Notes under the pieces: generated by a model | Databases searched by the model: none | Seen by the model: only the letters and a program-made list of their open reading frames with translations | Told to the model about the DNA's origin: nothing | Translations under genes and position numbers: made by a program | NCBI GenBank assembly: GCA_030832645.1 | Contig: JAURIR010000014.1 | Span: 1-34,599, forward strand | DNA length: 34,599 nucleotides | DNA from: Chitinophagales bacterium | Lineage (GTDB): Bacteria > Bacteroidota > Bacteroidia > Chitinophagales > Chitinophagaceae | Direction of reading: 5' to 3' | Shown: piece by piece, positions 16,279-18,122 of the stretch | Layout of the letters: each line of letters opens with the position of its first letter | Numbering within the stretch: position 1 is the stretch's first letter

Positions 16279-16291
16279 TTTATGATTGGTG

Positions 16292-16366
16292 TGGAACATA
16301 CTGGGCTCGAACCAGTGACCCCTACTCTGTCAAAGTAATGCTCTAAACCAACTGAGCTAATGTTCC
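16292..16366 (-). tRNA. tRNA-Val (anticodon GAC)
   Basis: Read on the minus strand, all arms fold. The acceptor is GGAACAT/ATGTTCC, and the D arm is GCTC...GAGC. The anticodon stem TTACT/AGTAG encloses the loop TTGACAG, so the anticodon is GAC. The T arm is ACTGG-TTCGAGC-CCAGT and the discriminator is A. It reads GUC and GUU codons. CCA is not encoded directly after the discriminator. A TACCTTTG box lies 10 nt upstream, and clpS follows after 13 nt. Confidence 0.96.
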
Positions 16367-16375
16367 GAGGCAGTG

Positions 16376-16409
16376 CAAAGGTAATCAAACAGAAAAGGAA
16401 TTAAAACAA
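16376..16409 (-). promoter_or_regulatory. Putative promoter of tRNA-Val(GAC)-clpS
   Basis: On the minus strand, TACCTTTG (16376-16383) matches the Bacteroidota -7 consensus TAnnTTTG exactly. It ends 9 nt before the first tRNA base. A TTG (16407-16409) stands 23 nt upstream of it as a candidate -33 element, slightly farther than usual. The site overlaps the last codons of the oxidoreductase gene. Confidence 0.55.
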
Positions 16410-17570
16410 TGGCCATTTGAAAGAAGATGTTAAATTGATTTTTCTTCCCTCGGCTGAGGACTTTCTAGCAGACTCAATAATTTCTAGTACATGCAATGCA
16501 TGTTCAACATTGATTTTAGGATGAGTGTTATTAACTATTGACTCAGCAACTTTTGTTGCACCTTCTTGCCATTGGTATCCGCCTGTTTCAGGCTCGTATA
16601 ATTTGGCTGCATGATCCCATGAATCGTCCAAATACACCCCATAGGTTTCCCAATCATACCCGATCAGTCGCATGTTTGCTTTGTCGCCATAGATTTGAAT
16701 AGAATGCAATTCTTGTCCCTTTGCTTCGTGTCCGTGTGGATCAAAATAATTAAATCCGCACATTACATGGCTGATGATTCCTTTTCCATGATCCAATAGA
16801 AGATGGGCATTATCTTCGGCTTCTACTTTTACAGTTCCTTTATCATCCACTACTCTGGTTGGATTTACAATGCTGGTCATTGCCATGATAGATTTTGCTG
16901 GTCCCAACAGAGCGGTTAAGGTTGCAATATTGTATACACCAAGATCAGGCATACTGCCGCCTCCTTTTTCATAGAAAAAGGCTGACCAGGTGGGACCTGT
17001 ATGACCGTATTGACCATGTGCACTGGCGATTCTTCCCAACTTACCCTCCTGAATGATTTTATTCATGAAGGCAAATTGTGGTGAGTTAACTACCGCGGGT
17101 GCTCCCCAAAGTTTTACGTTTTTTGATTTTGCCAAATCGAGCAATGCCTTTCCTTCGGCATATGTATTTGCCATTGGTTTTTCGCTCCATACATGTTTTC
17201 CGGCAAGCAATGCTTTCTTGTTGAGTTCACCGTGCACTTGCATATCGGTTGTGGTAACCATCATGTCGAAAGGAACCCCTTTCAACATTTCATCGATATT
17301 TTTATAAGTAGATGATTGAAGGTTGTACTGTTTTTTTTGTTCCAGGGCACGTTCGTATTTGATATCGCAGAGTGCAACAATTTCAATTAAAGGAGAAGAT
17401 TGAAGATGCGGGATGTATCGATTGCTTACACTTCCACATCCAATAAGGGCAACTTTTATTTTGGATGTACCCAAATCACTTGCAAATAGTTCCAATGAGC
17501 TTAGCAGCATAGCTGCTCCGGAAGCTGCAGTATATTTCATGAAATCTGTTCTCGACATTGGGTTACCCAT
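16401..17570 (-). CDS. Gfo/Idh/MocA family oxidoreductase
   Basis: This 389-residue NAD(P)-dependent dehydrogenase has an N-terminal Rossmann fold, IKVALIGCGSVSNRYIP at about residues 37-53, and the catalytic-region motif WSEKPMA. A C-terminal alpha/beta domain follows. The first 30 residues (SRTDFMKYTAASGAAMLLSS) look like an export signal of Tat style but with only one arginine, so periplasmic location is uncertain. Members act on sugars, sugar alcohols or their derivatives; the substrate cannot be read from the sequence. The start could be Met 1 or Met 5. It lies between the two valine tRNA genes with no obvious operon partner. Confidence 0.9.
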   Translation of the reverse strand: MGNPMSRTDFMKYTAASGAAMLLSSLELFASDLGTSKIKVALIGCGSVSNRYIPHLQSSPLIEIVALCDIKYERALEQKKQYNLQSSTYKNIDEMLKGVPFDMMVTTTDMQVHGELNKKALLAGKHVWSEKPMANTYAEGKALLDLAKSKNVKLWGAPAVVNSPQFAFMNKIIQEGKLGRIASAHGQYGHTGPTWSAFFYEKGGGSMPDLGVYNIATLTALLGPAKSIMAMTSIVNPTRVVDDKGTVKVEAEDNAHLLLDHGKGIISHVMCGFNYFDPHGHEAKGQELHSIQIYGDKANMRLIGYDWETYGVYLDDSWDHAAKLYEPETGGYQWQEGATKVAESIVNNTHPKINVEHALHVLEIIESARKSSAEGRKINLTSSFKWPLF

Positions 17571-17651: not shown

Positions 17652-17726
17652 GGGAGTTTAGCTCAGCTGGTTTAGAGCATCTGCCTTACAAGCAGAGGGT
17701 CGGCGGTTCGATCCCGTCAACTCCCA
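17652..17726 (+). tRNA. tRNA-Val (anticodon TAC)
   Basis: The acceptor GGGAGTT/AACTCCC, D arm GCTC...GAGC and anticodon stem TCTGC/GCAGA around CTTACAA all pair, giving anticodon TAC (UAC). The T arm is GGCGG-TTCGATC-CCGTC and the discriminator is A. It reads GUA and GUG. CCA is not encoded. Its sequence from the first T-loop base onward is repeated at 18074. Confidence 0.97.
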
Positions 17727-17755
17727 CAAAAGGTCACTTAATAGTGGCCTTTTTC
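17707..17755 (+). repeat. Direct repeat copy 1: tRNA-Val 3' end plus terminator
   Basis: These 49 bases run from the first T of the T-loop (TTCGATCCCGTC) through the acceptor 3' strand and the terminator hairpin to TTTTTC. They recur without mismatch at 18074-18122, with a period of 367 bp. This copy belongs to the intact tRNA. Confidence 0.97.
17728..17754 (+). terminator. Rho-independent terminator after tRNA-Val(UAC)
   Basis: The stem AAAAGGTCAC/GTGGCCTTTT (10 bp with one G-T pair) has the loop TTAATA and ends in T residues. It starts two bases after the tRNA discriminator. The next gene starts 8 nt beyond it, so that gene depends on read-through or an unseen promoter. Confidence 0.8.
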
Positions 17756-17761
17756 ATTAAT

Positions 17762-18013
17762 ATGTTCACTGTTTACATCCTTTATTCTATAAAGTTTGAC
17801 AGATTTTATAAAGGTCAAACATCGGATTTAAACAGGAGATTAAAAGAACACAATAATCAAGAAGAAAAGTCCACTGCCAATTTTGTCCCATGGATACTAG
17901 TTTGGCATAAGCTTGTGTCAACCAGATCTGAGGCAGTGATTTTGGAAAAGAAATTGAAAAATATCACCAGTAAAAAACGAATTAGAGATTTTATAAAAAG
18001 AAATACCAATTGA
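17762..18013 (+). CDS. Small GIY-YIG nuclease domain protein within a tRNA-flanked element
   Basis: This 83-residue protein is a single minimal GIY-YIG domain, like YhbQ and UPF0213 proteins. The GIY equivalent is VYIL (4-7) and the YIG equivalent is YKG (16-18). The catalytic Arg lies in RRLKEHN (R25 or R26), and E62 in AVILEKKLK is the expected metal-binding Glu. All key residues are present, so it may be active on DNA. The ATG is 6 nt after the repeated tRNA 3' end. The open frame extends back through the tRNA, but that part is not coding. It is flanked by direct repeats and followed by two hairpins, which suggests mobility. No integrase or transposase is present. Its natural substrate is unknown. 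Confidence 0.88.
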   Translation: MFTVYILYSIKFDRFYKGQTSDLNRRLKEHNNQEEKSTANFVPWILVWHKLVSTRSEAVILEKKLKNITSKKRIRDFIKRNTN

Positions 18014-18021
18014 TTTGGCGG

Positions 18022-18053
18022 CCCAGACAATCCGCCGCGGGCGGATGTCTGGG
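18022..18053. repeat. GC-rich hairpin 1 downstream of the GIY-YIG gene
   Basis: The arm CCCAGACAATCCGCC pairs with GGCGGATGTCTGGG, with one bulged A and a very short loop, to give about 14 bp. It begins 9 nt after the GIY-YIG stop codon. Its GC content is far above that of its surroundings. Confidence 0.85.
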
Positions 18054-18073
18054 TGCAGACCGAAGTGTCTGCA
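18054..18073. repeat. Hairpin 2, abutting the second tRNA-end copy
   Basis: TGCAGAC/GTCTGCA is a perfect 7-bp stem around the loop CGAAGT. It starts at the base after hairpin 1 and ends at the base before the second 49-bp repeat. Both hairpins share the CAGAC...GTCTG core. Confidence 0.85.
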
Positions 18074-18122
18074 TTCGATCCCGTCAACTCCCACAAAAGG
18101 TCACTTAATAGTGGCCTTTTTC
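18074..18122 (+). repeat. Direct repeat copy 2: orphan tRNA-Val 3' end plus terminator
   Basis: This copy is identical over 49 bp to 17707-17755 but has no tRNA 5' half. The upstream bases are hairpin 2, and nothing resembling the D or anticodon arm is visible. Its last base overlaps the stop codon of the convergent T9SS gene. Confidence 0.97.
18095..18121. terminator. Second copy of the tRNA terminator, probably bidirectional
   Basis: This is the same 10-bp stem and TTAATA loop as at 17728. On the minus strand it directly follows the stop codon of the 1414-residue protein and also ends in a T run, so it can terminate transcription from both sides. Confidence 0.75.

Follow-up and report, generated by a model that had tools for sequence, protein, structure and literature searches.

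The DNA directly behind the tRNA-Val(tac) gene of the window, by which we mean the whole stretch of 34,599 nucleotides analysed here (contig JAURIR010000014.1 of a Chitinophagales bacterium), probably represents a widespread family of integrase-free, tRNA-specific selfish mini-elements that would spread by nuclease cutting and homologous recombination. The typical unit is a single-domain GIY-YIG gene accompanied by a partial copy of the host tRNA at its site. Comparison of genome sequences documents the adjacency to tRNA genes, the duplication of the local tRNA end and terminator, empty sites, tandem arrays and solo remnants. It also shows that tRNA identities group together on the protein tree and that the partial copy bears a palindrome at an arm typical of its clade; in the clade of the window this palindrome is conserved. 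The cut site and the route of movement are what we infer.

The window is part of a 2.2-Mb draft genome. The order at the locus is tRNA-Val(tac), terminator, 6 bp, GIY-YIG gene, two hairpins and a second tRNA 3' part with its terminator, and the unit measures 367 bp with one GIY-YIG gene. The individual features are as follows.

17652–17727 (+), tRNA-Val(tac), the intact host gene at the site of the element (ARAGORN on the window; the same 76 nt in empty genomes)
17707–17755 (+), direct repeat copy 1, which covers the 3' part of the tRNA, beginning with the first base of the T-loop, and the terminator (exact repeat)
17728–17755 (+), intrinsic terminator of the tRNA, copy 1, with the GIY-YIG start codon 6 bp beyond (sequence; single in empty sites)
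17762–18013 (+), GIY-YIG nuclease gene, 83 residues, single domain (open reading frame, Pfam, alignment of 23 sequences)
18017–18021 (+), GGCGG, what is left of the T-stem 5' strand in the partial second copy of the tRNA (sequence comparison)
18022–18053 (+), hairpin 1, a nested palindrome whose inner stem varies between species with pairing kept (comparison, fold)
18054–18073 (+), hairpin 2, TGCAGAC-CGAAGT-GTCTGCA, directly before the T-loop of copy 2 (covariation, fold)
18074–18122 (+), direct repeat copy 2, which contains the T-loop, the 3' end of the tRNA and the terminator and leads without a break into the downstream flank (exact repeat; flank match to empty sites)

The two copies of the 49-bp direct repeat match exactly and the tRNA 3' end is restored by them; the repeat scores 49, and 100 shuffles of the downstream DNA never exceed 12. 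Copy 1 starts at base 56 of the tRNA, the first base of the T-loop, and extends through the terminator. The initial annotation had described this perfect repeat, with the same starting point for copy 1, around an integrase-free segment with an 83-residue GIY-YIG protein, its key residues and two hairpins, and all of this is reproduced: no integrase lies between the repeats, where the GIY-YIG reading frame is the only one on its own strand. It had also stated that copy 2 lacks any tRNA 5' half. The copy is indeed partial, but the five T-stem bases GGCGG stand before it, and copy 2 is a T-arm with the hairpins between T-stem and T-loop rather than a bare 3' end. We consider an assembly artefact unlikely because a similar layout recurs in other assemblies, the single-contig genomes G055, G226 and G125 among them. 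A same-genus genome (G072, contig C115) has the element at a place matching that of the window. We note that the other tRNA-Val of the window (16291–16366) is followed by a gene that is not GIY-YIG and which we take to be ClpS.

The protein matches the Pfam GIY-YIG domain (PF01541) over residues 2–72 of 83 with an E value of 1.5e-14, and no separate DNA-binding region is present beyond this catalytic domain. Residues Y5, Y16, G18, R26, H30 and E62 are invariant in the alignment of 23 sequences; the catalytic residues of GIY-YIG enzymes (Tyr, Arg and Glu) are included among these positions, and the domain with invariant Y5, Y16, R26 and E62 places the protein in the GIY-YIG superfamily. The NCBIfam model for group I intron endonucleases covers residues 3–38 only and scores below its cut-off. 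In a profile search the nearest solved relatives are UPF0213 1zg2 (E 4.3e-15) and 1ywl, followed by SLX1 entries, relatives that are named as structure-specific. Among the matches listed from named records the closest homologue is JAJTFY010000163.1 from a Chitinophagaceae bacterium (84% identity). The dN/dS ratios are 0.09–0.33 in nine of 15 homologue pairs, which shows the gene to be under purifying selection wherever this can be measured; in the other six, the pair of the window included, synonymous sites are saturated. The start codon directly follows the T-run of the terminator at many loci, and for this reason the nuclease gene is likely to be expressed by read-through of the tRNA terminator. 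In searches for a vehicle, phage records gave two weak hits (36% identity) and plasmids none, and PHROGs gave none for two proteins, so that no vehicle emerged from them.

A search of 41 genomes of the genus with the gene beside the tRNA-Val (16401–17570) gave best matches that led to 22 places, which were inspected. Three of these (L078, L079 and L080) are empty, the same tRNA being followed by one terminator that runs straight into the downstream flank, and L091 is filled like the window. L086 has tRNA-Val(tac) beside the homologue of gene 16401–17570 and no element, but its orientation is reversed and its flank differs; the remaining places have no tRNA-Val(tac) in the stretch inspected. 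A sharper pair occurs at tRNA-Met, where an empty locus (L205) and a filled one (L197) are nearly identical in both flanks. Across 30 tRNA-Met contexts of the genus, seven have the gene and three a partial tRNA copy only, while 18 have no element in the stretch available (short in L200); the contig of L217 ends inside an apparent gene start and L220 has no downstream DNA. In our view, repeated gain or loss of the element is well supported.

L078, L079, L080 and L205 are empty sites with a single tRNA and terminator, as the initial annotation had anticipated. Its proposal of a homing-like insertion is borne out in part: close relatives do carry empty and filled alleles, but strict homing finds no support in them. 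The 76-nt tRNA-Val is identical in filled and empty genomes, as is the 75-nt tRNA-Met in four filled loci and 13 others, and insertion therefore leaves the tRNA target undestroyed. Provided that the cut site lies in the tRNA, the filled allele has no removed or split cut site, only the partial second copy being interrupted. In classical homing, moreover, there is no target duplication.

Homologues were present in 39 of 60 genomes of the family and in 26 of 41 genomes of the genus, and named contigs supplied 38 loci, these counts being among the matches listed and the loci examined being part of all matches. The 97 loci examined, less one without a hit (L129), gave 96, and merging of five duplicate pairs (L039/L107, L054/L113, L058/L059, L111/L134 and L112/L133) reduced these to 91. 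A tRNA gene on the same strand lies within 150 bp in 72 of the 96 loci and in 67 of the 91 distinct loci. In the larger set the tRNA ends upstream within this distance in 62 loci and starts downstream in ten, and the loci without a tRNA comprise 13 that start no more than 250 bp from a contig end and 11 others; the corresponding numbers for the distinct loci are 57, 10, 13 and 11. The identities involved are Val, Met, Arg, Asp, Pro, Lys, Leu, Ser, Ala, His, Asn and Thr. When the 17 loci then without an assigned tRNA were compared with Rfam, four tRNAs and no other RNA were found. Of the 11 loci without a near tRNA, two (L050 and L052, at about 2500–2840) are Met-clade elements that keep a partial tRNA-Met with palindrome; there is no working tRNA in the stretch, and these elements have apparently become detached from their target. 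On a contig titled Candidatus Terrybacteria (L060, 2433–2805), a partial tRNA-Met with palindrome precedes the gene and an intact tRNA-Met.

Because the first loci had been found with the window's own protein, the count was redone on a phylum-wide profile sample. Its 29 loci include 21 with a tRNA (16 upstream and five downstream), three at contig ends and five without, and three of these five have a tRNA 150–250 bp upstream. The family profile matches 94 of the 148 genomes of the sample, although a few of these matches could be other GIY-YIG proteins, and occurs at up to 22 places in one genome.

Downstream of the gene, 43 of 51 upstream-type loci (42 of 50 without duplicates) repeat part of the tRNA and its terminator with a score of at least 16. 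The set of 51 leaves out L107, L112, L134, L059, hits below 60 bits and three loci with short downstream DNA; the other eight of the 51 have no repeat. As the initial annotation had foreseen, the family is found at other tRNAs with matching repeats, and many tRNA identities are involved. A repeat unrelated to the gene was considered as an explanation and is countered by control tRNAs in loci without the gene, only one of 33 of which has a repeat; this one (L199) is itself a solo remnant with a hairpin. Within a locus, the 30 nt that follow the tRNA agree between the two copies with a mean of 0.88 (37 loci, 24 of them at 0.9 or above); between different loci the agreement is 0.60. It follows that the local terminator has been duplicated or kept alike and that none has been imported, so that the end of the target itself appears to be duplicated, or kept alike by recombination. 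The earlier idea that the element carries a replacement terminator is thereby contradicted.

The partial copies range from five T-stem bases with the 3' end up to whole tRNAs, and whole or nearly whole second copies occur in L020, L034 and L040. In ten loci the gene is on the 5' side and an intact tRNA lies behind it. This downstream type is a mirror image in L002, L014 and L277, where a partial 5' tRNA is followed by the gene and the intact tRNA. L002 (1365–1799 on contig C235) is a second, distant GIY-YIG element in the window's own genome, at tRNA-Arg(cct); a palindrome-ridden tRNA-Arg(cct) 5' part precedes the gene, the end of which the intact tRNA overlaps. The element also forms a tandem array in L276 (G148, contig C34, 6400–10200), in which eight units of 359–368 bp, adjacent units being 0.89–0.97 identical, stand behind a tRNA-Met-like 3' part with an unrecognisable 5' half; ARAGORN finds no tRNA in this 3.8-kb stretch. 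A hairpin-only unit occurs at tRNA-Ala (L235, 1341–1580), with the duplicated 3' part and terminator and a double hairpin in the T-loop but no nuclease gene. We also observe tandem tRNA 5' parts upstream of a working tRNA in L019 (1–340, reverse strand), L054 (2232–2472), L069 (1600–1950) and L221 (from −364 to the tRNA). These units have no nuclease gene, and those of L019, L054 and L069 carry palindromes.

With 83 proteins in the tree, the tRNA label requires 38 changes (minimum 22), compared with a mean of 60 when labels are shuffled, and none of 200 shuffles was as low. The labels allow a tRNA up to 600 bp upstream; the tree leaves out L107, L133, L134, L059 and proteins below 70 bits and keeps both L054 and L113. 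In one clade Met is found in all 14 labelled rows, two of which are the same place, with five further rows unlabelled. The clade of the window (14 rows, 11 labelled) has six identities, namely Val, His, Asp, Arg, Lys and Leu. The breakpoint varies by clade between T-loop and anticodon arm. Where a partial copy was found, the palindrome lies in the T-loop in the clade of the window; in most of the Met clade its place is the anticodon arm, on the 3' side, and in several others it also lies in that arm. The T-loop is near-universal and the anticodon arm variable, which would explain an easier change of tRNA in the T-loop clade. We note that plain inheritance in place could also produce the clustering of tRNA labels.

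A palindromic stem of at least 6 is present in 31 of 36 partial copies of regular geometry, compared with 17.6% of 3600 control windows. This count leaves out L107, L112, L134, L059, L054 and loci without a repeat, and for their unusual geometry L020, L031, L034, L040, L119, L120, L121 and L133. The hairpin module is 85–95% identical among four genomes of the window's clade, third codon positions being 31–49% identical, and the window and L039 differ in the inner palindrome, which pairs in both. The initial annotation had named the hairpins but gave no explanation of this conserved component. Six distinct sequences of hairpin 2 contain no non-standard pair, and two of its eight pairs have compensatory changes. 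One of 500 shuffles reaches the covariation score, and 71 of 500 attain the number of pairs in which both sides changed. The eight sequences of this set were picked by a pattern requiring pairing and a T-loop-like sequence after it, and we therefore regard the covariation as support rather than proof; three candidates outside the set (L044, L199 and L243) also pair on inspection. Together with the T-stem, the module is predicted to fold as a three-way junction in three sequences (z of −4.7 to −5.8).

A reading of these palindromes as genome-wide REP repeats was rejected, the inner palindrome pattern of hairpin 1 having one place in the window's own genome and the other cores being enriched at elements. 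The second core occurs 0–12 times per genome in the genus and 0–4 times in controls. Sixty of its sites were examined, among the matches listed and leaving out three in G065, four in G066 and one in G053 that belongs to the known element L010; nine are at tRNA-like sequence, a tRNA or the gene and 51 are away from tRNAs. The third core has 21 places, five in tRNA elements and 16 elsewhere. As the cores also lie away from tRNAs, the palindromes are enriched at the elements yet not exclusive to them, and the hairpins may have been drawn from a wider pool. Dispersed palindromes TCCCGACCGAAGCGTCGGGA with the hairpin 2 core are seen on contigs C24, C214, C263 and C918 of G065, a genome in which the window protein has no match.

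In our view, the most consistent interpretation is that the nuclease, made by read-through of the tRNA terminator, would cut the tRNA gene at the clade-typical arm, the T-loop at the window. Homologous recombination via the common tRNA and terminator would then copy the unit into empty alleles, and the same process would expand it into arrays and keep the two repeats alike. Most likely, the palindrome either protects the partial copy from being cut or provides a structured site for recognition. Several points stand against this interpretation. The unchanged tRNA in filled genomes is a puzzle, as the enzyme would cut its own host; tolerance of such cutting by the host cell has to be assumed, although SegB cuts tRNA genes in its phage; and an 83-residue protein with no DNA-binding domain, whose closest solved relatives are UPF0213 proteins and SLX1, is an unlikely sequence-specific cutter. 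Further points against it are the loci with no repeat or no near tRNA, the palindrome cores found away from tRNAs, the limits of the covariation test and the chance that tRNA labels cluster through inheritance in place. We nevertheless rank a SegB-like cut first because SegB of phage T6 is documented to cut tRNA genes and to amplify the tRNA-nuclease segment. According to the available text of PMC13096335, SegB is a free-standing GIY-YIG homing endonuclease of T-even phages that cuts inside tRNA genes, and in T6 this cutting amplifies the segment in tandem through recombination.

We rank second, as possible and clearly less probable, that the cut falls on the donor. An SLX1-like, structure-specific nuclease would cut the element's own hairpin module, extruded as a three-way junction. 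The break would abut tRNA homology, and recombination with copy 1 or with another tRNA would excise, amplify or insert the unit, the intact tRNA serving as homology only and never as a substrate. Arrays, repeats that stay alike, solo remnants (L199 and L235) and empty sites are predicted by this route and the SegB-like one alike. A cut on the donor would also account for the unchanged tRNA in filled genomes, and it fits the conserved module with its compensatory changes and its predicted folding with the T-stem as a junction, the UPF0213/SLX1 relatives of the protein and the hairpin-only remnants. Against it, the palindromes vary between clades, the covariation comes from the T-loop clade only and from sequences picked for pairing, extrusion in chromosomal DNA is putative, and the first arrival at a new tRNA is left unexplained by this model alone. 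Tentatively, this route could define a new class of mobile element, wide in the phylum, in which a structure-specific GIY-YIG nuclease cuts its own palindromic junction in a partial tRNA copy, the tRNA gene is a landing pad of homology and hairpin-only derivatives are mobilised in trans. If this is true, the mobile unit would consist of one nuclease gene, one hairpin site and a borrowed host tRNA.

The same features have been weighed as an RNA-level module, in which the protein would cleave or bind the matching tRNA and the palindromic partial tRNA would act as an RNA decoy or antitoxin, the two forming a selfish toxin–antitoxin pair. The position of the gene directly after the terminator, the structured partial tRNAs in tandem at some loci, the conserved RNA-like fold and the clustering of tRNA identity by clade all agree with this, and the layout resembles that of type III toxin–antitoxin systems at some loci, although in the window there are no tandem repeats upstream. 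We consider it improbable, as the repeats include the terminator and are alike as DNA, the partial copies extend from five T-stem bases with the 3' end to whole tRNAs, and the GIY-YIG enzymes known to us act on DNA. Still less credible is a cassette moved in trans by a tyrosine recombinase with the tRNA end as attachment site. Many integrative elements restore a tRNA 3' end by a direct repeat, as this one does with a repeat starting in the T-loop, but no recombinase lies between the repeats, the breakpoint varies by clade and ten loci have the gene on the 5' side. The last reading, in which a tandem tRNA duplication has decayed next to a nuclease gene unrelated to it, might draw on the whole or nearly whole second tRNAs of L020, L034 and L040. 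We regard it as refuted already: the association holds across the family, in 67 of the 91 distinct loci and for many tRNA identities, empty sites exist and the gene is under purifying selection.

The presence of relatives at many different tRNA genes across a large bacterial group points to an overlooked family of very small self-spreading elements. A unit of less than 400 bp with one gene would be, to our knowledge, among the smallest autonomous mobile elements. Such a family would account for numerous additional partial tRNAs and small GIY-YIG genes seen in these genomes. It would also offer a simple system for asking how a nuclease with no DNA-binding domain reaches one tRNA gene, how the host tolerates this and whether tRNA genes attract elements via recombination alone. 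Among the matches listed in the open-access literature, subscription papers and preprints lying outside this scope, we find no description of GIY-YIG genes at bacterial tRNA genes, the phage study PMC13096335 aside. In the accessible portion of the 2006 survey of the GIY-YIG superfamily (PMC1564403), the word Bacteroides is absent and the tRNA passages concern other matters.

Comparison with known systems indicates several partial likenesses. The UPF0213/YhbQ-type proteins share with the window protein a single GIY-YIG domain and about the same chain size; they and SLX1 are known as housekeeping or repair proteins and are not known to have flanking repeats. Integrative elements with a tRNA attB site are similar in that the tRNA 3' end is restored by a direct repeat, whereas the present family has no integrase, a unit of about 370 bp, a variable breakpoint, 5'-side forms, tandem arrays and palindromes. 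REP/RAYT systems likewise tie short palindromes to a small nuclease gene, but here the gene is of the GIY-YIG type, the palindromes are located within tRNA copies and each genome has few of the cores that were tested.

SegB is likewise a GIY-YIG enzyme encoded beside tRNA genes, and the genes of the present family do adjoin tRNAs. The motif reported for SegB is RAWTSGAAC (PMC13096335, available text). Its reverse complement, GTTCSAWTY, is the T-loop consensus, and the tRNA of the window fits it at eight of nine positions; the match is only suggestive, as nearly any T-loop would fit. SegB differs in being a phage gene for which the available text of PMC13096335 describes no target-derived tRNA duplication, palindrome module or unit structure, whereas the present genes are chromosomal, encode about 80 residues and lie beside a duplicated tRNA part. 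Because the filled allele has no split target and the protein no separate DNA-binding region, the element is classed apart from a homing element proper, and we file it as a variant of the free-standing GIY-YIG selfish gene.
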